64,000 bases of DNA, taken from assembly GCA_958450365.1 (NCBI GenBank), contig CAUEEP010000916.1:1124001-1188000 (forward strand), read 5' to 3'. The translations under genes were made by a program, and so were the position numbers. Shown piece after piece: positions 23,901 through 56,104 of this stretch (the stretch's first letter is position 1; each line of letters begins with the position of its first letter). The stretch comes from Mesorhabditis belari. Its lineage: Eukaryota > Nematoda > Chromadorea > Rhabditida > Rhabditidae. The notes under the pieces were generated by a model. That model searched no databases, was not told the DNA's origin, and saw only the letters and a program-made list of their open reading frames with translations.

Positions 23901-26900
23901 AGGCGTCACGTGTTGATCTCTCAACAAGACAGTCGAACAAGTCGCCTCTCTCCGGCCGATATCATCAACACAATTCGGAGGACGTCGATGAGGTAAAGAA
24001 GAATAAGTGAAAAGCATATACTTTAATACAAGGTGTTCAATATTTATGGGGATCAGTAGATTACTAGGTTTCGAGCTCATTTTGTACAAATCTAATGCTA
24101 AAAAGGAAACACACTTATCAATACGTCCAATGTGAACAATTTTAAGTTACTTTTTTCAAGAATTCTTACCTTTTCCACTGTTGCTTGCCTAGAAGCGCCT
24201 AGAAGCGCCTAGAAGCGCCTAGAAGCGCCTAGAAACGCTAGAAAGTCGAATCAATTTAGTTTATCACAAACTCTCGTTAAGCTTTCTTGGAAGAACCAAA
24301 ATTTGATTGGAAAATTGATTTAATGTGATTCTAACATTTTTAATTTTCTGTAGATTCGAAAACTGTTAAAGAATGAAGACTTTTTCATTTTTAAACAAGA
24401 ACAACAAAGATAAAGAAGAAAAGAACAAGAACTAGGATCTGACTTTGGTGAAATTTGGTGATCGAGTTCTGATAAATCGATTTTTAGAATATCAAATTTA
24501 GTAAACAGTAATCTAGAATCTAGAATAATCTAGAAAATAATCTATTCTTTGAACTCCTGTGCAATGCTTTCTTGACGATTTTTTTTCATAAACCAATTTT
24601 GAGAGCCCTAAACAACTTGCGAGCTGAAAAGTTTCCATAAATATTGAACATCCTGTAGTATGTGTACTATACAATAAGCATAGTTATTGTACTATGCTGT
24701 AAACTCAAGCAAAACTTTCGAGTAACCCTTAAGCATTATGTCATTTGTCTAACACATTTGTCACGTTAACTGTCACGTTAACTGTCACGTTAACTGTCAC
24801 GTTAACTGTCACGTTAACTGTCACGTTAACTGTCACGTTAACTGTCACGTTAACTGTCACGTTAACTGTCACGTTAACTGTCACGTTAACTGTCACGTTA
24901 ACTGTCACGTTAACTGTCACGTTAACTGTCACGTTAACGCTCTCAAAACAATATTCATTGTGTCCAAGTCAAATTCAAAGCTAAACTTCACACAAAAGCT
25001 TCTTCGTTTCAAAAAAAAACTTGCAAGCATGATGAGTTTCCTGTTAACAATAAAATTTTCAATGTAACACTGAAGTCTCATTGTTAGCACTGATGAAACG
25101 ATCAATTTTCATTTGATCATTTGATTTTCAACGATCAATTTTCATTTGATCATTTGATTTTCAACAATCAATTTCCTCTCAACAAAATACTCAATGTAAT
25201 CACTCGAATCTTAGCACTTTAACCGCTCTTCAAGTGCAAGTGTCCAGCATCAGGTGAATCAACAAAAAAAATAAATGAAAAGGATTGAGTAGACTGGGGA
25301 AATTTTGAGATGAAATCGGATTTTTGAAGAGGTTGTTAGCTTGCAAATTGAAGAATTACAAATTACAAATTTAACTCAATACTTTTTAAAGTTTAAAGTC
25401 TATTTTAAAAGTTTTTGCATATTGTTGCAACCTCTTTTAACTTAAAAAGTCTCTTTCCGGTTTTATAGATCTCAAAATTTCTCATTTTGTGATCTTGTTC
25501 TTACATCTGTAAAACGGTAAAAGACTCAACTTGTTCTTTACGGTGTACATTGTGCTGAAAAAACGGAAACGCATCCTTTCTGGTGCACAAAAAGAAAAAA
25601 TTTCGGGATAATAAGTCTTTTTTGGAGAAACGAGTGCACTAGGAAGTCTGGATTTCTATTAGTACATCGTACATCGCAAAGAACGAAGTAATTGGGGAGA
25701 TTTCGGTTGAACTTCTTCTAAACTCTCACTTCAAACTGCACTCCACTCATCTCTAGCGATTCGGTTCTTTTTTTTCTATTTCTTTTCAAACTTTCTCACC
25801 TGTCACCTCGTTGCAAAAGTCGAGATTAATCAGTTGAATATTGTTATCATTTTTTTTGGTGCTTGTTGATCTTGTAGACTAAATTTGCATTTAAGCTTAC
25901 TCAGGAAGCTCACGAACATGCGTGACGATTCGCGTAAAAAGCATAGAAACAAAATTGTTTCAAGTTTCAGGCAAGTCAAAGCCAAAGTCAGCTCTAGAAC
26001 TATTGCAGCTCTGGCCCAGGTAAGTACCTGAAACTGGCAGAAAGCTGGCCAGCTTTGACAAGGCAAGACAAGACTAGATCAAAGTCAGATCTGGGATCAG
26101 GCTTGACTTGGCTCAAAAGCCCTAGAGTCAAGGTAAGACAAGGCAAGACAAGACAAGATCAAAGTCAGATCTGGCTTCAGGCTTGGCTTGGCTTGGCTCA
26201 AAAGCCCTAGAGTCATTCCTGAATGCATTCAAATCCTATGTGTTTACAAACTTAAATGCAAATTTACCTGTTTATAGTATCTCATTTAGATCATGTTTAT
26301 AGATCAACAAGTATCTCATTTATTTTTGCTGTTTTAAAATCAAAAAAAAATGAAGATTTTAATATAGTAAACAATTTTAGACTCTCGAAGAGAGGGACAG
26401 CAAGGCGACAAGAACAAGAACAGAGGATTGCCGAGAGGGGAATCTCACGAGTCGCCTCGAATCGATCAGCTGAGGTGAGGGAAAGATTGGGGTTACTCTA
26501 TAGAAAAGATTTGTACACTTAAACAACATTTACAAGAACTTACAAGAACATTTCATAACACTTATTAAGTGTATAAGGATTACTGTAACTAACAAGGAAA
26601 TGCCCAGATATGGGGGTGACCGTTTGGGATGAGTGATACCTCATTCGATAAATCTAATGATAAATATTGATGACCAAAAAAGCTGCTTATCTGGATTTAA
26701 ACACAGATTTCTGTGTTCCTCTCGGTCAGCCAAAGCTAAAGTCTAACCATGTCCATCCAGATCAGGCCAGGGTCTTAGGCCTTGCTTGACCCTGGTTTGC
26801 CCAAAAAAAACCATGAAAAATCATCATTGACCTAGCTGGATTATATGGATGGTCCGGATAGAACCTTGGCTTTAATAATTACAGCTTTCAATTCGAAATA

Positions 26901-33991: not shown

Positions 33992-35154
33992 TTATCGATC
34001 AAGCTCTTCGGTAGGACTGTTGAAGCCTTTGAAGTCAAGTCCTTTCTCCTCCATTCGATCTTTCTCGGGCTTAATTTGTTCATTGGCCATGTCGATCTTA
34101 GACAGCAGATCCCATTTCTTCAAATACTTCTTTGCCATCTCCAAACGCGTTTTTTCATCGCATTTTTCCCATGCATCGATGTGAACTGCTTCCCAATACA
34201 CCGATGAATCATTGCTGAGAAGGGCTTCCTTAACATTTGTGCAAGTAGCGTACGCTTTGGGCATAAAATCAAGGATTGCCGCCTCCTTGGTGTCTTTCCA
34301 CTGACCTAAATAAAAATTACTATTCTTTTCCTAAGCCATTCAAATCTATATTTTAAAAATCAACTGACCGCAATTGTCAGGATGTAAATCATCGATAAAG
34401 AGAAACGCGCCAAGCAAGAGAAGTTGCACAAGGACTTCCACGCCAACGTCTTCTTCTTTTTCGATTTTGGAAATGGGAACAAAATCGTCATTAAATATAG
34501 ATTCGACTTTCCTCGCAACAGTTGAAAGTTCATAAGCCTCACTATAAGTTTCTTACAAGTAAATTTCTTCGGTTTTTAAAAAAGTCTTGAACTTTTTTTC
34601 ACTTCAGCATTTTAAAATTATAAATTTTGATACGTTCTAGCCATAAAACCTAATCGAAAACCTTGCCAAGACAATGGAAAATAAAAGATTCAACTTACCA
34701 CAATAATCGCGTTTCGATCCTTCAGGTCTGCTTCTTGCAGAGTTGTTGCAGCTCCAGCTTCAAGATCTTTCAATTATAAATTTTAATAGGTTCTAGCCAT
34801 AAAACCTAATCGAAAACCTTGCCAAGACAGTGGAAAATAAAAGATTCAACTTACCACAATAATCGTCTTTCCATTCTTCGGGTTTGCTTCCGGCAGAGTT
34901 GTTCCAGCTGCAGCTCCGAGTTGTTCCAAAGTTTCATCATCGCGACTGACGTAAAGCTCTTGATAGTCCAGATTGACTTGCAAAACATCACGGATTAATC
35001 GACGTATATCGTCTACTGTCGACTAAATAAATCCGTTTAAAGATTAAATAAACTAAAAGTGAACCCCGGCAACAAAAGTGAGACTATTGACGCCTCCAAC
35101 GTTATCATCATTGTGATCTCGCAGTTGGACCATCAGGGCGATTCGAGCTTCCAT
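33992..35154 (-). pseudogene. UBL/kinase-like family member D, truncated
   Basis: An ATG on an acceptor at 35154 starts a ubiquitin-like domain over two exons (35065-35154, 34855-35022; MEARIALMVQLRDHNDDN, then STVDDIRRLI and ending KNGKTIIV). A partial copy of the second exon's end is repeated at 34699-34772. The central exons present in paralog B are missing. The C-terminal part is retained: LLLLGAFLFIDDLHPDNC up to 34369, then 33992-34305. It stops early at EELDR* where B continues about 20 residues. No phase-matched acceptor links the UBL exons to the C-terminal exon, so it is most likely a pseudogene, though a short UBL-only product is possible. Confidence 0.7.
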
Positions 35155-35644
35155 CTAAAAGATAAATGATTAATCAAATTGTTGTTGTGAAAGTAGAAAA
35201 GGAGTTGCTTCGCTGTTGCCTGCGTCCGAGTTTTCAAAATTTTCACTCATCTCTGCAAAATGAAAATCTTAAGAAAGTTGCAGAGAAGAAAACACTGCCA
35301 AAAAATAAGTTAATTCTTAAATCAAGACCATCGATTACAACTAAACTAGGTAGGTAGGCAAAACGGTTGAAACTTTGTACAAATTTATTAAAACAACCGC
35401 AAACTACTGATATTTTTTTCTGATGATGAAACTACTGATGAAAGTTTTTCAACGCTTTAACGGCAAGAAAAATAATCTCAAAGGAAGTTAGAAACAACGC
35501 ACCCCTTATGGTACATACATATTACAAAGACAGAAAGTTAAATATATTGATTTTGTAACATAACGGTGAACGAAGTGGTTACAGACATGAAATAATAAAA
35601 AACAAACATAACAAATAATAAAAAAATCAAAAATAAAGGCCACA
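35155..35644. other. Intergenic spacer between D and A
   Basis: AT-rich. Part of it (35340-35520, CTAGGTAGGTAGGCAAAACG) recurs inverted at 55320-55480. It holds the presumed 3' UTR of gene A and leader of gene D. No other gene seen. Confidence 0.6.
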
Positions 35645-37437
35645 TCAATTTCCTCCATCTTCCTTCTTCTCCTTCTTCTCATTCTTTCCTTCTCCCTCGC
35701 TGGCTGTCTTTCTCTTCAGAGCTAAAAATGATTTAGCATAGATTTTTTAAATAAATTTGCAAAACTTACATTCGTTGCCTTTTGGTGGCTCCGCTACTTC
35801 GCGTATATGGTTTCTGATATACTCGATGTATTCGTCCAAACGGACGGCTTCCTTCGTCTTGCCGGCTTTGTCGTCCTCTCCGAATTTCTTTGCGATGGCT
35901 GGGTCGCTCTGCACTTGGTCAAGGGCTTTTGCAATATTGTCCTCGATTTTCCATGTAGTGGTGACATATTGATTGAAAGGCTCTTTAACTTCCTTCTTGC
36001 ACGCTTTTTTTTCGGCTTGGACCTGAAATTAATGGGTTTGTTTAGTCTTTAATTCGAATAAAGGCTGTTTGTGTTCTTAGTTGTAAATAAAAATAATTAC
36101 CGTAAAATCGACGACCTTCAATTCGTGCGCCAGACCTCCCTCCAGAGTTTGAGTTTCGACGTATCCCCAGTTGGCCTGATTTACCAACCCAAGATCTTCT
36201 AAGCCTAACAACCAGACAAGTATCTCCAACTGTTTCTCCATTACTCCTCTGCTCTCTTTATCGATCGCTCGCCATTTTTCTTCATCCTTGTCTAAACTAG
36301 ATATATTTAATTGAAAATATTTGTGAAATTTAACCTTTAATGCCCTGCATCGCAGCCTCAACCGACCGTCCGTCACGTGTCCAGAAACCATGAACTAAAT
36401 TATTAGAGTTTACGCTTAAAATCAAAAATGAGCCTTACTTATCTTTGTTGCCAAATACACGTATCCACTTTCAGCTGCATCTCGTATAACGAGGACCTCT
36501 TCTGATCCAACGTTGATGAGACTGAGCAGACGGTAGACGAAGATCTCACGAAGATCGACGTAATGAAGATTCTTGCTCTTGAGCTCCAGACCCGAGTTCA
36601 TGCCAGCCATGAACTTGGCATAGTAGGCAGTAGACTTGTCGTCCCACTCCAAATTAACGCGACAGGCAGTCTAAAAAGTTAGAATCGTTCGGAGAAAACG
36701 AATTTACCTGGATACCAGCACCTTCAACTATTGCACAAGTCACAGATGCCTGGGAACATCTCTCCTCGAAGTAAGCTTGAACAGCTTTTAGAAACCATTT
36801 TTTCTCCATGTGAAGGAGCCAAAAGCCGGTCCTGTTGGCCTGTTCATTACGAATCCGATTGAACTCGCGATACGCGGAGAAGAAACGGGCTTGTTCAAGA
36901 GTCTCCAAGTACTTAGCAGCCTTTTCTGCAATCAACAGCAAATTTTTACGGAGGTTCCTATCGGCCTTTGATCCCCTCGATGTGGATCCCCCGCGGATTT
37001 CCTTCTCGCTCAGAGTCATGAGCTTGTGCACTTCCTTCTGATAGTCCTCCCATTCTCCAAGCATTGCATGTTTCTGAAATACATAATTTTCAAGTCTTAA
37101 TCGAAAATCTCGGCTAGGGAATGTCAAATAAAAAGATTCAACATACCACAACCAGCGTGTCTCCATGCTTCACCCTAGTTTCTTTCAAAGGAATTTCATC
37201 AAGTGCCGTGAATTGTTCCACACGTCGATCATCGCGATTGATGAAAACTATTTGATATTTCGGATCGACTTTCAAAACAGTATGGATATGATCTCTCAAA
37301 TCCTTTGCCGTCGACTAAATAAATCCATTTAAAGATTACATAAACTAAAAGCGAACCGCGTCACCAAAAGTATGCATCAAGATGTCTCCAATGTCCGCAT
37401 CATCCGCATCATGCAGCCGAAAAAGCAGTTGGACCAT
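35645..37437 (-). CDS. UBL/kinase-like family protein A (475 aa)
   Basis: Eight exons of consistent phase on the minus strand: 37357-37437, 37147-37314, 36708-37073, 36439-36670, 36335-36394, 36101-36291, 35770-36022, 35645-35721. The ATG lies directly on an acceptor (ttttag|ATG), as at a trans-splice site. Residues 1-83 look like a ubiquitin-like fold (MVQLLFRLHDADD ... STAKDLRDHIHTVLKV ... TRVKHGDTLVV). Residues 84-205 are helical and charged. The C-terminal half has VWLLGLEDLGLVNQANWG and LKVVDF, in the same order as the kinase-type catalytic-loop and DF-like motifs of paralog B, but without its HPDN residues. The tail is Lys/Glu-rich (KKEKKEDGGN end). It diverges from gene B across a palindromic promoter block. 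I do not recognise an annotated family; enzymatic activity is unproven and may be lost. Confidence 0.8.
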
Positions 37438-37654
37438 CTAAAAGATAAATGAATATATTTAGAAAAGAATTGAAAGGACGTGCAAAAATGTGAAATTAGA
37501 CTATAAATTGAAATATTCAGAGTAAAAATGCGAGAGACTCAGGAAGCCACCCGGCAAAAGCTAAATGCAGATTCGGAATTCGCGTAAAAAGCGCTAGCGG
37601 ATAGGATATGCCTCATTTTAAAACCATCGGATAGGCTCTGTCTACTATAAGTTG

Positions 37655-37957
37655 GTGCAAAAACATTATAGATTTTACGGAGGGGGAAGGGAAGTTATGA
37701 GCGAGTCGAAATAAAAAGTTGCACAATACCACACGACTCCACCACAAAATGGAGAAAAATGAAAAGAATGGCAAATGGGGAATTTTGTGCGGGGTACGGT
37801 AGGACATCCACGCTTTAGAAAGCGCGCCGCACCACTTTCGCATCAGCCCCTTTAAACCGCACGTAAATAGGAACCTAACCACATATTGACTGTAAATTTG
37901 CTGGAAAAATTAGCTTTTTTGTGATTTATAATGGAATGGGATTTCGGTGAGCGAGAA
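37655..37957. repeat. Palindrome left arm (promoter of gene A)
   Basis: Reverse complement of 38370-38664 with few changes (AAGCGCGCCGCACCAC, GTACGGTAGGACATCC, TTTCGGTGAGCGAGAAA). The 412-bp centre is unique. A third copy of the inner segment lies upstream of the UBL gene at 53857. Confidence 0.93.
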
Positions 37958-38369
37958 ATTTGGCGTATGAAAAATGCGTAGGCGATGAAAAATGAATATT
38001 TTATAACTTTTTTTAGGCTTTTTGCGTATTTTAGAGTTAAAAATAGCAAAAAAGGGGGTAAAAATTGAGTGCGGGATTTTTGGGTATATGGGTGTGCCAG
38101 AGGCGGCATATATGTGTATACTACTCTTATCGAGAGCTCGATAATCAATTCTAGTTAAAGCCCAATAAACGGGGCCTTGAAGGTTATAAAACAGTAGAAT
38201 TAAAGTTGTGATATTTAGGTTGTGAATTTGAAAGCGCTGTTTGAAGTACGGGATCTGAGTTGGGACACCGCTTCTGTAATCTTTGATCAATGTCAACAAC
38301 GGGAGCCATTCAAGATTTATCGAGCATGGCGTAAGTAAGCATTCATCTTTGCATTGGGATTTCTCGCTC

Positions 38370-38664
38370 ACCGAAATCCCATTCCATTATAAATCACAAA
38401 AAAGCTAATTTTTCCAGCAAATTTACAGTCAATATGTGGTTAGGTTCCTATTTACGTGCGGTTTAAAGGGGCTGATGCGAAAGTGGTGCGGCGCGCTTTC
38501 TAAAGCGTGGATGTCCTACCGTACCCCGCACAAAATTCCCCATTTGCCATTCTTTTCATTTTTCTCCATTTTGTGGTGGAGTCGTGTGGTATTGTGCAAC
38601 TTTTTATTTCGACTCGCCCATAAGTTTCCTTCCCCCTCGGTAAAATCTAGAATGTTTTTGTAGC
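38370..38664. promoter_or_regulatory. Palindrome right arm; shared putative promoter of the UBL family
   Basis: This block, about 90-400 bp upstream of gene B, is repeated inverted upstream of gene A and directly upstream of gene C (53455-53660). Conserved pieces include GTGGTGCGGCGCGCTTTC, GGATGTCCTACCGTACCCCG and TCGACTCGCCCATAAG. Conservation in front of three paralogs suggests a promoter or 5' control region (inference). Confidence 0.55.
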
Positions 38665-38753
38665 GCGTTTTGAAAGTACTCGCTTGCCCTCCCTTCTTTT
38701 TATATAATTTGCCCATAGTTTGTTGTTTAGATTTCTAAAATGGTTTTTTTTAG

Positions 38754-40388
38754 ATGGAAATCGAACTGTATGTCTATCTGCAAGATGACACGGGTGGTGT
38801 TGGAGGCTTCAAGACTTTTACTTTTGGTGCCACGGTTCGCTTTTAATTTATTTAATCTTTAAACGGATTTATTTAGTCGACAGTACACGATTTGAGGAAA
38901 CAAATCCTTGCTGCTTTTCATATCCCTCTGCAACATCAACAAGTTTACCTCGTTCGCGCTGAAACTGAAACTAAAAAGGAAACACGGGAACAACTCAGAG
39001 GTGGTACTCTGCAAAAAGCAAATGTGACGAATGAAAGCAAGATTGTTGTGGTAAGTTGAATCTTTTGTTTAACATTCCCTAGACGAGATTTTCGATTAAG
39101 ACCTGAAAATCATATATTAAAGTGTGAATTTTTTCTTTTCAGAAGCACGCAGATCTTCAGTGGTGGCCGCAGTACAAAAAATCTGTTGAGATTGCAATGA
39201 AGTCATCGGGCCGTGAACGAATGTTAAATGCGCAAGAGGCCGTCAGGCTGCACATGCGATTGATGGAAAGTGGCTTTTTCGATGTCTACACCAGCTTCAA
39301 CTCTTTTCGCATGGAAAATCAGCATGAGGTGACCTATTGGGCTGACGGAAACTTGATTTTGATGAAAAAAGCCGTTAAAAGCCATTTTCGTGCCCAACAC
39401 TACAAACTCAAGGACGCCAAGGACGAATCTGACTTCATTTGTCGCTTTGAATCTCGACCGACGGATCTGGGAGGCACTCGCAAAAACACCCTTGCTTTTG
39501 TCCGGCTTCATGGAGAGATGGAAGAGACCAAGTACAATGTGAAGTAAGATTTCTCTAATTTCGAGCAATTTAATTATCACAATTTGTTTAGATGCCATCA
39601 CTTTGGATCTCGAGCATGGAGCAATTCTGGAAAAGGGCAACCTCCGGACATAAAAGAATTGTACTGCTACAAACTGCTCGAATTGATCGACGTAGGACCG
39701 CATTCTCAATTCATCCTTCCAAAAAAAGTCGTTGACAGCAAGACTTCCATGTAATAATCTTTACCTTTTTTCTCTTATTTACGTATAAATTTTAGGTACA
39801 TCGCAACAGAATGGCATGACGATTTTGTTCCCATTTCCAGGATCAAAGAAGAAAAAGATGTTAGCGTGGAAATCCTTGTGCAACTTCTCTTGCTTGGCGC
39901 GTTTCTCTTTATCGATGATTTACATCCTGACAATTGCGGTCAGTTGATTTTTAAAATATAGATTTGAATGGATTAGGAAAAGAATAGTATGTTTTTATTT
40001 AGGTCAGTGGAAAGACACCAAGGACGCGGCAATCGTTGATTTTATGCCCAAAGCGTACGCTACTTACACAAATGTTAAGAGAGTCCTTCTCAACAACGTA
40101 TTGGGAAGCTATTCATCGATGTATTGGGAAGCAGTTCACATCGATGCATTGGAAAAATGCGATGAAAAAACGCGTTTGGAGATGGCAAAGAAGTATTTGA
40201 AGAAATGGGATCTGCTGTCCAAGATCGACATGGCCAATGAACAAATTAAGCCCGAGAAAGATCGAATGAAGGAGAAAGGACTTGACTTCAAAGGCTTCAA
40301 CAGTCCTACCGAAGAGCTTGATCAATACATAAGCGCTATCAAGCAGAACTTGGAAAAACTAGCTGAAATGTTGAATGCTGGAGAGTAA
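38754..40388 (+). CDS. UBL/kinase-like family protein B (447 aa)
   Basis: Six exons of consistent phase: 38754-38834, 38877-39050, 39143-39543, 39592-39750, 39796-39938, 40003-40388. The ATG is directly on an acceptor (tttag|ATG). Residues 1-85 resemble ubiquitin (MEIELYVYLQDDTGG, STVHDLRKQILAAFHIP, closing SKIVV). Residues 86-270 form a family-specific region with WW and aromatic residues (LQWWPQYKKS). The C-terminal half has an N-lobe-like YCYKLLELIDVG, YIATEWHDDF, then FIDDLHPDNCG (H315, D317, N318) and AAIVDF (D332). This is the order of an HxDxxxxN catalytic loop and DFG-like site in atypical or APH-like kinases. The tail is helical and charged. No stops or frameshifts. A kinase role is inference; family name unknown to me. 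Confidence 0.85.
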
Positions 40389-40544: not shown

Positions 40545-43265
<2,721 letters not shown>

Positions 43266-43577
43266 ACTGCCTCACGTAAAAATCTATTTCAATAGTTTTT
43301 TATTTGTCTTTAATTGATTTTTAAGTGTGTTTGATTGCTATGTTTGTGGCTCGAGTTTTATTCCACTCTGCGTCTAATTCCATATCGTGTTTGTGGAATT
43401 ATTGGTCACTTGTGAAAACCCCTTTGCCCTGTGAAATGTGGTGTTCTTCCTTTAATTGTATTGTTTTTGTGTATTTCATAAATGGTTTTCAGAAGAAAAT
43501 GGAATTGAGCTGGGGTGTATACGTGCGCTCATATTGTTGATAGGAGCTGAAGTGGAATGTGATTATCGTCATTAAGA
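43266..43577. other. Spacer between helicase pseudogene and Kelch gene
   Basis: About 300 bp of AT-rich sequence with no supported exon. Presumed 3' end of the pseudogene and 5' leader of the Kelch gene. Confidence 0.6.
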
Positions 43578-46336
43578 ATGGAGAAGGTTGAGAGCGACCT
43601 TGGCGGTCAATTCGCCGATAGAGAAGAGGTACATATTCAAGCAAACATGAACCAATAATTTAACCTTAAGAACCTTAAGGCTAGTAATTCGCCACCACCA
43701 AAACTTTACGTCGACACCTCTCACACCTCCAGTTTCTTCGAACAGCTTGATTCATTGAGAAGGTCTTTTAAAATTCGATTCTGATTCAACAAAGTTTTAG
43801 TGACCGTTTATTATGTGACGTTTCACTGGTACCAGTGAAACGAGTCTCGCTTGACAGACCTGAAACTCCTTCGAACGTTTGTAAAGGCTCGCCAATTTAT
43901 GCACACAAGTAAGATTTTTAGTCAGCACTCCAACTGCAATTTTAGGGTTATTCTATCTTCTACATCTCCCTATTTTTGTGCCATGTTTGCAACTTCCAAT
44001 ATGATTGAATCGAAAGCTAGCACTGTAGAATTACATGATATGGATGAAGAGGTAAGTTAACACAAGTTGTATATGTACACTACGTGTTGATAGCTTTGAA
44101 TTTCATTACTTTTTATTGGTTTCAGGCTCTTCGCCAATTGATCGACTTTATTTACACAGGTCAACTCACAATAAATTCAAGTGGAAAATTTGTATATTGT
44201 CAAAGCAAAACTTTATTTAGATTTAAGCCATGCCCTTCTAACAACAGCCTCGATGTTGCAACTAAATTCAGTTAAAGATGCTTGTGCAAAGTATGGACTA
44301 AAGGTTCACCGAAAAAGCGAACGTTTAGCTTTTTGATTGATACAATAACGCTTGGAAATGTCATATCTTTGCTCGACTTTGCCTGCATTTATAATTGTAC
44401 TCAACTATCAGCGTCTGCTCGTAATTATATTTGCAAGAATTTTTGGTATGTTTTCATTACCTTCCAAAAATATTGTTTTTCAGTCATCTGGTAGATTCTG
44501 ATGAGCTTTTAACGCTGGATTTTGAACGATTCTGCAGTTTAATCTCGGATGATCGCCTAGTTTGTGGTGAATGTGGTGAAGAAGAGGTTTATCGAACGGC
44601 CATCAGATGGATCCAAGCAGCACCAGAAGAACGCGAACAATATACACCAAAGTGAGTGATTTTCGTAAAGATTTTGTGAAATACAAACGTCTTTTTGCAT
44701 AATCTGCATTTCTTAGGTTGTTGTCGCAAGTGAGACTTGGCCTCTGCTCCGCAGACTTTCTAGCGGAGACAGTTTTCAATGAGCCAGTTATTAAAAATCA
44801 GCAAGAGTGCAAGGTAGATAAACTTGTTAACGATTTTCTATTCTAACATTTCTTTAAGGATATTCTTCTGGAGGCAAGTAAAGTACATCTACGCCGAGGG
44901 CGACTTTCCCCATCTGCGTCATCACTTCGTGAGCGGTTTGTCCGACCCCGACAACAAATTGGATCGAACAAGGTTTGATTAGTGTATGATTCAGAAATAT
45001 TGTGGTTTGTAGATTGTGATAGTCGTCGGAGGTCAGGCACCAAAGGCAATTCATAATGTTGACGCCTATGATCCAACTACAATGCAATGGACTTCTTGTT
45101 AGTCTTCAATCAATTTTATTCTAAAAAATAGCTTTAGTGAGCCCTTTATCGCAAAGACGTTGCCGATGTGGTGTTGCCCTAATCGATCGTCATATCTATG
45201 CTGTTGGTGGTTTTAATGGAGCTCAGCGAATGAAATCTGTTGATGTGTATGACACTATTAGGTTGGTTACTTTGATTGCCCATATGCATTTTGTTTTTAA
45301 ATAATTTTTCCAAACAAAAAAATTTAGGAATCAATGGATCCCTGGGCCACCTATGAGGTATTAGTTTGTGATACAAAATGTTATGTGAGTATCGAGTTTA
45401 CTTGTTAAGTTGTTTGGTCTTGTAATCAAATAAATTTTAGGCTTCGTCGGGGAACTCTTGGGGTGACCACTCTCAACGATCAGCTATTAATTGCTGTAGG
45501 AGGTTTCGATGGAGCAACAGGGATTGCAAATGCTGAACTGTTGGATCCACGAACAGGTTCGCTAAGTTGTTTTGCAAAAACTATTGTTGTGTTTAGGAGA
45601 TTGGTCAGAACTTGCCTCGATGATAACGCGTCGATCGTCGGTTGGCGTGACGTCTGTTGGCTCTAGTGTTTATGCGGTTGGCGGATACGATGGTCAAAGT
45701 AGACATTGTTTGAATACGGTATGTCTTCTTAAACTTTTCAAGAATAACCAATTCTTTTAGGTAGAAGTTTTTGATCTGCGAGCAAATCGTTGGCGTGCTG
45801 GGAAACCATTACGCGAGGTAAGTTTTGATTTACAGCTTTTCTTAAAATTGCATTAGGTTCGATCTGGAGCTGCAGTATGTTCTCTTAATGGTTTAATCGT
45901 TGCTGCGGGTGGTCACGAGGGAGCAACTGTGAGAGATACCGTTGAGGTTTGTAACATTTTCGTATGTAATTATTCAAAAGAAAATAGATCTATAATCCTG
46001 GGGTAGATGATGATTGGGCATTGATTCCAAACATGAGCGCTCCAAGACGAAATGCGGGTGTACTTTTTGTGAATAGGTAATCAAGCTTTTGAGTAAACAT
46101 AATACATTTATTGCAGCTCTTTAATGGTTTTCGGTGGCGATGAGGGAGATTCTCATTTATTGGATTCGATTGAAACATTGACAATGGATATGGGTAGAGG
46201 ACAACGGGCAGAGTTTGCCGGAAGATGGCAAGTAATAGAGGTACTTTCAATTTTCTTTAAAAATGAGCATTTTATTTAGTCAACACTTCCGCAACCTCGA
46301 TCATACAGTGGATTAGTGCTTGTCGATAAGCCGTAG
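43578..46336 (+). CDS. BTB-BACK-Kelch (KLHL-type) protein, 620 aa
   Basis: Twenty exons of consistent phase: 43578-43628, 43680-43762, 43801-43908, 43946-44051, 44126-44180, 44221-44290, 44329-44445, 44484-44651, 44717-44813, 44859-44972, 45013-45097, 45138-45261, 45328-45357, 45441-45556, 45597-45718, 45761-45817, 45857-45946, 45988-46076, 46117-46240, 46280-46336. The BTB domain is at about residues 30-145 (LLCDVSL, HKVILSSTSPYF, FIYTGQL), BACK at about 155-270 (LDFACIYNC, CKNFCHLVDSDELLTLD). Six Kelch blades with GG doublets follow (VVGG, AVGG, AVGG, AVGG, AAGG, VFGG). The BTB loop after DVSL is unusually long (VPVKRVSLDRPETPSN). KLHL proteins recruit substrates to Cullin-3 ubiquitin ligases or bind actin; the substrate cannot be told. 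Introns are mostly 35-60 nt. No lesions seen. Confidence 0.93.
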
Positions 46337-46576
46337 CTAAAATTTAGTTATTATCTTTAAGCATTTGTTTCCATGGATTTCATGTTTCTGATTTTTTTTC
46401 TGATCTAGTCTTTCAGTTTTTATTTTTGTTGTCTGAAATAAAAAAAATTCTATTTCTTTACTGGTACGTAACGCGTTTGAACACGTTTGAGATACTCTTG
46501 GGTGTAAAAGCACACAGCTCGATTAAACACACATTTTAAGCTTTTCCAAGTTGATGACAACTTCCTATAAGCTTAA

Positions 46577-46860
46577 ATGGACGCGGTTTTTGATCCAGCA
46601 AAAGTAAAGTTTAAAATTGAAGTTGAATGAAGTTGAAGAAACTCACGGAGAGCGCCGTCAATGCATTCCGGCAATCGAAGTAACTATTTTGAAAAAATTT
46701 GATAACTGTTTCAATGTAGCCCAGCAATAGAGGCACTCGAACACGAACATATGGCCATGGTTAAACATATCAACGAAGATACTTTATTTGTGATAGCAAG
46801 GTTTAAAGCTTTCAATACAATACAATGTTGTTGGGAAAGATTTTTCCAATTTTGTTTTTA
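46577..46860 (+). CDS. Possible small gene downstream of the Kelch gene
   Basis: Three short blocks join in frame through two small introns: 46577-46603, 46639-46679, 46720 onward. They start MDAVFDPAKKLTESAV and continue PAIEALEHEHMAMV and INEDTLFVIAR, then run to a stop at about 46860. The second intron (40 nt, GTAACT...TGTAG) is convincing; the first acceptor (TTGAAG) is weak. I do not recognise the product. It may be a small protein or an exon remnant. Confidence 0.3.
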
Positions 46861-47153
46861 ATCTTTTATCTAAATATCGAGTAGAAGCAAATAGAAAATG
46901 ATTTGTTTTGCGTGTGAGATGTAGTTTAAGCAATATGTATGCAAATTTATTATCAATTCAAATTTGCTCAGTGAAAATCTCGTGGTACTGTACAATCTCA
47001 TAGATGAAAAGAGGTCAGCAAGAAAAAAAATGATTACCCAAAGATAAAAGGCCAAGAAATCATAGTTTGAACATGAAGTATTCCGGGAAATTAATGCAAG
47101 TGCACTAGAGAGCTATAAATATTCAAAGAATCGATACAAGTTGTAAAAATCGA

Positions 47154-48842
47154 TCAATTAGCAGCCGCCCATGCCTCCAACTCGGCCATAGTGTCCTGTT
47201 TTTGGACTTTTCCCTTTGAACGAGTGATAGGCCCGGAAGGAACGGTGGGAAGATCGGAAAGGGTGTCCATTTCTTGATCCGATTGTCGAGATGGAAGAGA
47301 TGGAGCTTGTTTGGCTTCCTAAATGGTAACAATTGTGATTGATTATGAAGATGGTAATAATAGGTCTACTATTGTGTAAAACCCAGTCCATTTTCTCACT
47401 ACACTATGCCAAACTGTATTCAGGCTAAGTATTCAGGCTTTAATTAGTGCTGAACTAAAAGACATGTCTTGTATGCTTATTCCTTATTGCAGTTCGTTTT
47501 ATTAGCTTTTTGTTTTGTTCTTTTTGTTCAACGATCTTTTCTTGTGTTCTTTTTTGTCCCCTCACCTCTTCAAGTTGTCTCAATTCATCCATCAAATCAT
47601 CCTCATCGGCCACATCACCAATTGGCCGCGAGATCGCATCGTTGAGCTCTTTTGAGTCTTGCATCTGCTCACCAATATCGTCCATCAAGTCATTCACCTG
47701 CAAAAAATGAATTCATAAGCAAATAATTTCAGTTTCTAGTCTATTTAGTTAGCCGATAAGTCTTTGAACACTTCATTTTGATAACTATTTAGAAAGAGCC
47801 AATTCAGCAAATGACATACGGTTTGCTCCATTAGAAAGGCCTACTATTTTTCTATAAAGTATCGTTGAAATCTTAAGAAATGTTTTGTTTCTGGTTTCTT
47901 GTTCGAAGTGTGAAGTTAACGTTTGCGAAGTCAAAAGAGAAACGATCCGATTACGCGATTTAGACATTTTGGTTCAAAGAAACATATTTTAGTGTCAATA
48001 AATAAAAGACAGAGCGCAAAAAGTTAGACATATAGTCAAATTTTTAAAACAATCTGTTCATCCAATTTCTTTGTTTCACATTTTTTACGCAAAACAAGTT
48101 TTTGCACTCAGATTTTCTTCGAGACGAGCCCAGATTAGCGGAAAAAGTTAGAAAATTGTATAATAAACATCTTTTATTTGAAGCAAACCAGATGTTAATT
48201 GGTGAACTTTTATTTCGAAACAGATTTAAAAGAAAGTGTTCAAAGATTTACCGGCAACCTAATACAAAGCTTATCTTAACTTAGCTAACTAGAGTGCATC
48301 AACCTGTCCTTTAGTTTTTCATAGATTACATTGCTCACCTTATCAATGTCGAGATCGAGATTCGCCTTCTTGAGCGACTTCGATGCATCGGCAAGAACTT
48401 TCAATACTTCGGCATTCGTTCCCGCGTCTTCGAGGGCCGCTCGTTGAGCTTCAAGCTTTGACAACGTCCCATCAATTCGGCTGAAAGTTTTGTTTCTCTC
48501 CATTGAACAATTAATAATTTATAGTTAGCCAGTTCAGGCTCAGCTGGCTCAATTCCCACCTCAATTCCAATTCATGATGTTTCTTTCTCTTCAACGCATT
48601 TAATGCAAGCCGTTGATTCTTTTGCCCGTGCTTCTTTGCGGTTGCGATTTCCTAAAATTTCACGTGAATTCTTTGATAGTTCCATATAGTTGCTACTCTT
48701 TCCAACAAACCTCATCAATTTTCTGTTCATAATACTCCTGCTTTTTGATCAGAATTGCTTCCGTGTCTCTCAATTGATTTATCGCCTCTTCTGCAGTGAT
48801 TTCTTCCTTTTTCTTCCCGAATAGTCGTCCAAACATTGACAT
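47154..48842 (-). CDS. vps-32: CHMP4/Vps32 (Snf7) ESCRT-III subunit, 220 aa
   Basis: Five exons on the minus strand: 48711-48842, 48560-48651, 48339-48480, 47566-47697, 47154-47318. The product begins MSMFGRLFGKKKEEIT (membrane-binding N terminus) and continues EAINQLRDTEAILIKKQEYY, AKKHGQKNQRLALNALKRKK, RIDGTLSKLEAQRAALE, DIGEQMQDSKELNDAISRP and DEDDLMDELRQLEE. It ends TMAELEAWAAAN, matching the Alix/Bro1-binding tail of CHMP4. Length and exon order fit the family. It polymerises into filaments that cut membrane necks in multivesicular-body formation. The ATG lies directly on an acceptor (ttttcag|ATG), suggesting trans-splicing. An in-frame upstream block at 48913-48972 (MPFHRKIEINRGV, donor GTAGCA) could add 20 residues but would mask the membrane-binding N terminus. 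Confidence 0.95.
47745..48305. mobile_element. Decayed mariner-type MITE in vps-32 intron 3
   Basis: The left end TTAGTTAGCCGATAAGTCTT and right end GAGTGCATCAACCT match degenerate ends of the TTAGGTTGATGCATAAGT family. The interior keeps GTCAATAAATAAAAGACAGA, TTAATTGGTGAACTTTTA and GCAAACCAGATG, which parallel the intact copies. An old insertion. Confidence 0.7.
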
Positions 48843-53856: not shown

Positions 53857-56104
53857 ATGACACAAGCTGAAATCAACCTGTTTGTCTGGCTACGAAATGA
53901 CAGTGGTAATGTTGGATCCAAACGAACTCTGACTTTGGGTTCCAAGGTTAGCTTTTAGTTTATATAATCTTTAAACAGATTTATTTAGTCAACCGTAAAC
54001 ACGATGCGTCAACGAATCCATAAGGCTTTGTCGATCGATCTGGACCATCAAGAGCTTTACGTCGAGCTCGATGATGGAACTTTGAAAGATCTCGAAGCTG
54101 GAGCTGCAACAACCCTGCAAGAAGCAGACCTGAAGGATCGAAACGCGATTATTGTGGTAAGTTGAATCTTTTATTTTCCATTGTCTTGGCAAGGTTTTCG
54201 ATTAGGTTTTATGGCTAGAACGTATCAAAATTTATAATTTTAAAATGCTGAAGTGAAAAAAAGTTCAAGACTTTTTTAAAAACCGAAGAAATTTACTTGT
54301 AAGAAGCTTATAGTGAGGCTTATGAACTTTCAACTGTTGCGAGGAAAGTCGAATCTATATTTAATGACGATTTTGTTCCCATTTCCAGCATCAAAGAAGA
54401 AAAAGATGTTAGCGTGGAAGTCCTTGTGCAACTTCTCTTGCTTGGCGCGTTTCTCTTTATCGATGCTTTACATCCTGACAATTGCGGTCAGTTGATTTTC
54501 AAAATAATATTTTCAATTAATTATATCTAGTTTAGACGAGGGAAAGCAAAAGCCAGTTTACGACTTAGAAAGCAAAACACGAGCAAACGAGCAGATGGAT
54601 ATACTTGCCTACTTGTTAGACTTAGGAGATCTGAAGAGGGCAAATGAGGGGGCTACGTCAAAGTGGAAACTCAGGAGGGAGAGAGGGAGGCGCACAAATT
54701 GATGATCGTCGATTTTTCGGTAATTATTTTTATTTACAACTAAACACAAACGGCCTTTTAGGCTATTCGAATTAAAAACTAATTTCTAGAAACTAGAAAA
54801 CCCATTAATTTCAGATCACCGATCACGAAAATCCCACGGGGCCGAAGACGTGGAAGGAGCTATCTAGTTTCAATCGATATGTCGCCGAATGGGAGATCGA
54901 GAAAAGAATTGATGAAGCCCATGACAAAATGCTGATCCACGACACTGTCATCCAAAAGAAAGTCCAAAAGGACGACCAAGCCTACAAGGAGGAAGTCGAC
55001 AAGAAGAAAGTCGACGAGAAGAATTTGCGCAAATACATCGAGGGGATCAAAGCAAAATTGGAGAAGGGCCGCGAATGTAAGTTTTGCAAATTTATTTAAA
55101 AAAAATCATTTTTATGATGCTAAATCATTTTTAGCTCGAAAGAGGAAGACAGCCAGGGAGGGAGAAGGAAAGAATGAGAAGAAGGAGAAGAAGGAAGATG
55201 GAGGAAATTGATGTGGCCTTTATTTTTGATCGGGTTCTGTTTTTTATTATTTCACGTCTGTTATCACTTCGTTCACTGTTATGTTACAAAATAAATATAT
55301 TTAACTTTCTGTCTTTGTAATATGTATGTACCATAAGCGGGTGCGTTGTTTCTAACTTCCTTTGAGATTATTTTTCTTGCCGTTAAAGCGTTGAAAGACT
55401 TTAAATATCAGTAGTTTGCGGTTGTTTTAATAAATTTGTACAAAGTTTCAACCGTTTTGCCTACCTACCTAGTTTAGTTGTAATAATCTTTACTTTTTTT
55501 CTCTTATTTACGTATAAATTTTAGGTACATCGCAACAGAATGTAATGACGATTTTGTTCCCATTTCCAGCATCAAAGAAGAAAAAGATGTTAGCGTGGAA
55601 GTCCTTGTGCAACTTCTCTTGCTTGGCACGTTTCTCTTTATCGATGATTTACATCCTGACAATTGCGGTCAGTTGATTTTTAAAATATAGATTTGAATGG
55701 ATTAGGAAAAGAATAGTAATTTTTATTTAGGTCAGTGGAAAGACACCAAGGAGGCGGCAATCCTTGATTTTATGCCCAAAGCGTACGCTACTTACACAAA
55801 TGTTGAGGAAGCCCTTCTCAGCAATGATTCATCGATGTATTGGGAAGCAGTTCACATCGATGCATTGGAAAAATGCGATGAAAAAATGCGTTTGGAGACG
55901 GCGAAGAAGTATTTGAAGAAATGGGATCTGCCGTCTAAGATCGACATGGCCAATGACCAAATTAAGCCCGAGAAAGATCGAATGAAGAAGCAACAAATTG
56001 TCTTCCAAGGCTTCAACAGTCCTACCGAGGAGCTTGGTCAATACATAAGCGCTATCAAGCAGAACTTGAAAAAACTAGGTGAAATGTTGAATGCTGGAGA
56101 GTAA
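53857..56104 (+). pseudogene. UBL/kinase-like family member C, composite and broken
   Basis: An acceptor-linked ATG at 53857 begins two intact UBL exons (53857-53946, 53989-54156; MTQAEINLFVWLRNDS, then STVNTMRQRIHKALSI, closing DRNAIIV). Next comes an isolated fragment of the kinase-like exon (ending 54486). Then a stretch homologous to the last three exons of gene A follows (54545-55211): it has a frameshift near 54640, retains LMIVDFS and a Lys/Glu tail ending EDGGN*. Last is a second, open copy of the B-type C terminus (55525-55667, 55731-56104; LLLLGTFLFIDDLHPDNC then MPKAYATYTNVEEALLS). The order UBL, B-part, A-part, B-part does not form one gene. It looks like a rearrangement of at least two paralogs. 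A UBL-only product remains possible. Confidence 0.75.

Follow-up and report, generated by a model that had tools for sequence, protein, structure and literature searches.

Plant proteins of the PI4K-gamma type carry a ubiquitin-like domain ahead of a kinase-like domain. In nematodes, the krma kinases have been reported as Maverick cargo (Widen and colleagues, as related in PMC10680173), and according to PMC10680173 they surfaced in work on Caenorhabditis briggsae toxin-antidote elements. In this study, we describe a nematode family that joins a ubiquitin-like head to a probably kinase-like core and that is represented in a 64,000-nucleotide (nt) stretch of Mesorhabditis belari DNA (assembly GCA_958450365.1, contig CAUEEP010000916.1, positions 1,124,001 to 1,188,000 of the forward strand; here called the window) by two intact genes, A and B, and two broken copies, C and D. 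We read it as a two-part, mobile, conflict-driven family of kinase-like proteins, a reading to which we give a probability of roughly 55%. Positive selection, the reassortment of modules, and a mobile context are new beyond the initial annotation of this DNA. Contigs, loci, and database proteins are cited by our own labels (C702, L050, P0024); the genome searched comprises 207.6 Mb in 714 contigs.

Results

Gene A (complement of 35645-37437) has eight exons, introns that are all GT..AG, and a product of 475 amino acids (aa); gene B (plus strand, 38754-40388) has six exons and a product of 447 aa (Table 1). The spliced product of A is identical at 475/475 residues to an NCBI protein from M. belari, P0023, so the splice model of A is backed by independent annotation. 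The open reading frame of B is not a chance one, since 21 of its 22 homologues with an E value of 1 or less were found at 4.2e-66 or better; a second search gave 26 matches to B with E <= 1. The named homologues of B are all from nematodes (Caenorhabditis, Auanema, Mesorhabditis, Halicephalobus, and Aphelenchoides), and A matched four M. belari proteins, itself included, in a search whose scoring was confined to the 7993 candidates with the most words in common. The initial annotation had described A and B as intact over eight and six exons, with a shared two-exon head, and the complete models agree on both points: each gene opens with a ubiquitin-like module (exon 1 of 81 nt, exon 2 of 168 or 174 nt) that is interrupted at an identical place by a phase 0 intron of 42 nt, and the start ATG directly abuts the acceptor TTTTAG. 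An ATG right after an acceptor is the typical look of spliced-leader trans-splicing in nematodes.

The head of gene A matches Pfam UN_NPL4 (PF11543) at 3.6e-5, above the Pfam cut-off, and the beta-grasp fold of the ubiquitin-like head is borne out by profile and fold searches, as the ubiquitin fold first proposed for the N terminus would have it. The head ends in ..LVVKHAML in A and ..KIVVKHADL in B, and the GlyGly end is absent from all 23 heads compared; the head is therefore not a conjugated tag.

The core is likely, though not proven, to be kinase-like, judging from the order and conservation of active-site residues and the secondary structure of a predicted model. In a joint alignment, A-type and B-type members have in common a Lys, a Glu, a Tyr-x-Ala-Thr hinge, Asp-Leu, and Val-Asp-Phe, and five active-site residues (Lys, Glu, catalytic Asp, Asn, and metal Asp) occur in kinase order. 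In gene B, FIDDLHPDNCG (39908-39938) precedes AAIVDF (40026-40043; positions counted by eye), as initially noted, and the codon of the putative beta-3 Lys is split by intron 3, exon 3 ending within it. The B-type Asp-Leu-His-x-x-Asn resembles the aminoglycoside-phosphotransferase (APH) loop. The core of gene A carries the motifs YYAK, DLREIFVY, YLATK, EDLGLVN, and VVDF. Conservation was counted over 29 B-type and 4 A-type members, gapped members being set aside site by site: in the A-type, Gly replaces His in 4/4 members, Lys, Glu, and the first Asp are kept in 4/4, and the second Asp is kept in 3/4, with P0026 lacking Asn and the second Asp as well as His. In the predicted model, a strand bears the Lys and the helix that follows bears the Glu; a long helix precedes the first Asp, and two short strands precede the second, which is the order of a kinase fold. 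In the fold searches, the best 50 matches each all came from the ubiquitin-like part and hence are uninformative on the core. The kinase-like C terminus proposed at first thus keeps residue order, conservation, and modeled secondary structure on its side and has no credible profile or PDB-sequence match, and the label "partly pseudo-enzymatic" is not borne out: A is without the His yet keeps the Lys, Glu, Asp, and second Asp. The product of gene B is expected to be an active kinase, and gene A is expected to be a divergent M. belari branch that may encode an antagonist or a weak kinase.

Gene A and its paralogue on contig C702, P0024, show 213.7/1115.5 nonsynonymous and 24.3/294.5 synonymous differences over 470 codons. 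The ratio of nonsynonymous to synonymous divergence (dN/dS) is 2.53 (bootstrap, 1.80 to 3.97, with 0/1000 at or below 1; Fisher p = 2.8e-6), and other estimators give 2.3 (LWL85), 4.4 (YN00), and 3.9 (maximum likelihood). Across the seven introns, 13/363 aligned sites differ (3.6%), and dN is six times the intron distance. By part, dN/dS is 4.1 in the head, 3.6 in exon 3, 3.5 in core exons 4 to 6, 1.4 in exon 7, and 0.9 in exon 8 (24 codons). The 110-base 5' flank is 95.5% alike and the 300-base 3' flank 65% alike; the shared block beyond the pair is 92-97% alike, which puts the neutral distance at roughly 4-8%. Gene conversion confined to introns would mimic this pattern, but it must strike the introns while skipping the exons between them. 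We conclude that the A pair has been under positive selection. It is rare for coding sequence to outpace its own introns severalfold in divergence across the greater part of a gene, and such cases mark molecular conflict at its sharpest.

B-type heads follow the same trend more weakly. Between B and three copies on C179, the heads carry 15.5 nonsynonymous versus 1.5 synonymous changes, 24 versus 2, and 24 versus 2, and head change exceeds intron change (p = 0.004, 6e-4, and 5e-5), with an intron distance of 0.025-0.039 and a whole-gene dN/dS of 1.15-1.32. The C179 copies at 21 kb and 59 kb have full frames and every splice site, and the copy at 78 kb is broken by a 2-nt insertion. The core of B is under purifying selection relative to a copy on C682 (0.39 over 350 codons, with 97 codons gapped and the head unaligned).

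Among database proteins, heads and cores assort independently, across species too, in a comparison of head and core identity over 253 pairs of 23 proteins. Caenorhabditis bovis P0001 and P0006 and C. japonica P0005 have cores that are 95-98% alike and heads that are 19-30% alike; conversely, C. bovis P0006, C. sp. 36 P0021, and C. angaria P0027 have heads 92-97% alike and cores 42-63% alike, and Auanema P0013 and C. angaria P0027 have cores 85% alike and heads 27% alike. The full head-core junction is retained in P0013, P0021, and P0027. Species are intermingled in the core tree (31 proteins; 10/28 inner branches well supported), and the identity between Aphelenchoides P0017 and C. angaria P0027 reaches 77%. 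Such identities suggest that relatives have been exchanged between species.

Most loci of one subfamily lie beside a rare integrase. P0017-type copies occur in M. belari on C353, C568, C544, and C676, and a strong integrase match is separated from a kinase-like exon by 0.3 kb on both C353 and C568 and by 3.4 kb on C544, where the match is a fragment; the genome-wide integrase search gave no strong match near the copy on C676. An integrase is thus found within 3.5 kb at 3/4 P0017-type loci, or at 2/3 if C353 and C568, apparent duplicates, are counted once. By a simple after-the-fact binomial, this proximity has a probability of 4e-7 for the P0017-type loci and 9e-9 for all 11 family loci (7e-6 with duplicates counted once). 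The integrase at C568:1624300 (L053, 298-1158) has 286 aa with rve (6.3e-15) and DUF5679 (7.7e-11) domains, a combination that we take to be of the Maverick/Polinton type; the marks of such elements are a protein-primed DNA polymerase B, capsid genes, and terminal inverted repeats. The L053 integrase is truncated by a short repeat, which is found in 22 places in the genome, and the 39 genome matches to the integrase comprise 8 strong ones (E of 2.1e-67 or better), 22 to the end short repeat, and 9 weak ones. Neither the kinase-like family nor the integrase had a relative among the viral contigs searched, nor did the kinase-like family among the phage records searched. In C. remanei P0033, the gene model joins a kinase-like member to a Pif1-like 2B helicase domain (PF21530), as in Helitrons, and this join may be a sign of another mobile carrier.

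The initial annotation called C and D broken paralogs, and so they are: exons 3 and 4 are absent from both at the same junction, where the two are 97.3% alike over 301 bases, and D has an early stop. Copy C, in which A-like and B-like 3' exons form a mosaic, sits outside 33992-40388, the range given in that annotation. The possibility that the copies are allelic rather than paralogous was rejected, as the window, compared with 68.6 kb of C702, matches it in rearranged order; the main matches are A and 41352-47558 (92-97% alike), and the others are family cross-matches, the inverted repeat, and short repeats at window positions 9.8-10.2 kb and 51.5-51.8 kb. On C564, C680, C698, C669, and C702, pieces of the 302-nt inverted repeat are found next to copies or fragments of the family, and this repeat may be a foldback element that aids rearrangement of the family.

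A DEAD-box helicase-like gene fragment at 41352-42559, which appears damaged in the window, adjoins family copies on C702 and C179 too, and P0022 (from C179) fuses DEAD-box helicase-like sequence to a B-type head. The DEAD-box gene was tried as a selection control and dropped (five stops and intron-spanning matches; dN/dS of 0.64 over 327 codons). The window also holds a dispersed repeat at 47742-48264, the half of the query into which 49 of the 52 genome matches listed fall (72-81% alike), and a 12-nt tandem repeat, TGTCACGTTAAC, in 15 copies at 24755-24939.

Table 1. Positions in the window of the parts of genes A and B, the broken copies, and the inverted repeat
Feature	Position	Strand	Basis or remark
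Gene A exons 1-2 (37357-37437, 37147-37314), ubiquitin-like domain, 83 aa	37147..37437	-	Spliced model, P0023, Pfam
Gene A exon 3, linker between modules	36708..37073	-	Spliced model, alignment
Gene A exons 4-6 (36439-36670, 36335-36394, 36101-36291), kinase-like core	36101..36670	-	Spliced model, alignment
Gene A exons 7-8 (35770-36022, 35645-35721), C-terminal part and Lys/Glu-rich tail, stop	35645..36022	-	Spliced model
Gene B exons 1-2 (38754-38834, 38877-39050), ubiquitin-like domain, 85 aa	38754..39050	+	Spliced model
Gene B exon 3, linker and core start	39143..39543	+	Spliced model, alignment
Gene B exons 4-5 (39592-39750, 39796-39938), putative alpha-C Glu, hinge, catalytic loop	39592..39938	+	Spliced model, alignment
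Gene B exon 6, AAIVDF metal-site motif and C-terminal helices, stop	40003..40388	+	Spliced model
Copy C: ubiquitin-like exons 1-2, deletion as in D, A-like exons 6-8, second B-like 3' end	53857..56101	+	
Copy D: ubiquitin-like exons 1-2, tandem duplication of 156 nt, no exons 3-4, last exon with an early stop	33992..35154	-	
Inverted repeat, 302 nt, arms 98% complementary	37658..37959 and 38359..38660	.	Between A and B

Discussion

We postulate that the ubiquitin-like head would select a partner by docking, and that the C-terminal domain, a putative kinase-like fold of the APH kind, would phosphorylate the docked target. The head would change fast as its partner evolves away, and head swapping would allow quick retargeting of the core. 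The family may move between nematode genomes, carried at least in part by virus-like, probably Maverick, elements, with later amplification in M. belari by segmental duplication; conflict is the presumed cause of the selection. More tentatively, it can be envisioned that this is a combinatorial, horizontally exchanged animal kinase system in which few cores are paired with more numerous fast-changing heads and both are reshuffled within nematode species as well as between them, the head picks the target, and the A-type is a rapidly evolving M. belari counter-player.

Several results weigh against this interpretation. The core found no credible kinase family in Pfam, NCBIfam, PHROGs, or PDB sequences; a match to LegK1 (E of 0.019) came from 1/33 members, amid unrelated matches of equal or better E; and the model has a mean pLDDT (predicted local distance difference test) of 66, with residues 102-164 below 50. 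Divergence between A and P0024 is also higher at synonymous sites than in introns (p = 0.016), an excess that comes mainly from exon 7 (dS of 0.31). For the B and C179 heads, the nonsynonymous excess over synonymous change is not significant (p = 0.26, 0.08, and 0.08), and the last two C179 heads are alike in the 90 residues compared, so these tests are not independent; outside the head, the B pairs have no clear excess of dN over dS, a slight one appearing in exon 3 of L050 and the C-termini of L049 and L051. Among the six pairs of more distant heads (A, P0024, B, and C; intron distances of 0.06-0.25), dN/dS is 0.9-1.8, except for A-P0024 at 4.1; the four pairs with D were set aside because D had been read out of frame. 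In C. bovis P0001 and P0006, exon 3 is missing its first part, so that some of the swaps may reflect joins made in gene models. Lastly, the integrase search gave no match near the A- and B-type loci, one lying about 0.86 Mb off on the window's contig.

Positive selection would also be expected of a selfish toxin-antidote element, in which kinase toxin copies are loaded into eggs or sperm and others, such as A without its catalytic His, act as antidotes that bind the toxin or its target; the amino acid excess would then reflect toxin and antidote chasing each other. Intact and diverged paralogues do adjoin in opposite orientation, and the discovery of the krma kinases in work on toxin-antidote elements (PMC10680173) fits this explanation, which we nevertheless consider unlikely: females of M. 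belari come from gynogenesis, according to PMC7433073, and this would limit drive. Similarly doubtful is a vertically inherited, duplicating host immune family of ubiquitin-like kinases that recognize, or are hijacked by, intracellular parasites or viruses. Its ubiquitin link, multicopy expansion, and positive selection are as such a family would have them, but cores are 93-96% alike between species, yet paralogues within one species are far apart, and an integrase adjoins one subfamily.

By far the least probable explanation is that these are dying copies of transposon cargo in which amino acid change reflects lost constraint. C, D, and the C179 copy at 78 kb are broken, and the whole-gene ratios of B against the C179 copies are close to 1; however, relaxed decay predicts dN/dS near 1, and the A pair gives 2.3-4.4 together with its sixfold excess over introns. 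Moreover, B and the C179 copies at 21 kb and 59 kb have intact frames and splice sites, and the B core is constrained relative to the C682 copy. A mobile, conflict-driven family, if real, would be a portable ubiquitin-like and kinase-like pair that crosses worm species; it would give virus-like gene transfer between animals a concrete cargo to test and could open a way to new immune factors or incompatibilities.

The modules themselves are of a known kind, and it is their evolution that is unusual. The head has the beta-grasp fold in common with other ubiquitin-like domains (PF00240, ubiquitin; PF11543, UN_NPL4) and differs in its missing C-terminal GlyGly, its place ahead of a kinase-like core, and its fast change. 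As in APH/fructosamine-kinase-like folds, Asp-Leu-His-x-x-Asn is followed by hydrophobic-Asp-Phe, with the Lys and Glu upstream in the right order; unlike them, the family has no Gly after Asp-Phe in the sequences read, and it gave no profile match to such a family in Pfam or NCBIfam. A lipid-kinase family comparable to PI4K-gamma is not among the best 25 of 31 matched Pfam families. Like the family described here, the krma kinases are a nematode gene family, are called kinases, and are said to be exchanged between nematode species (PMC10680173), and the two are perhaps the same. The reassortment of heads and cores in these nematode proteins is reminiscent of the module swapping of bacterial polymorphic toxins.

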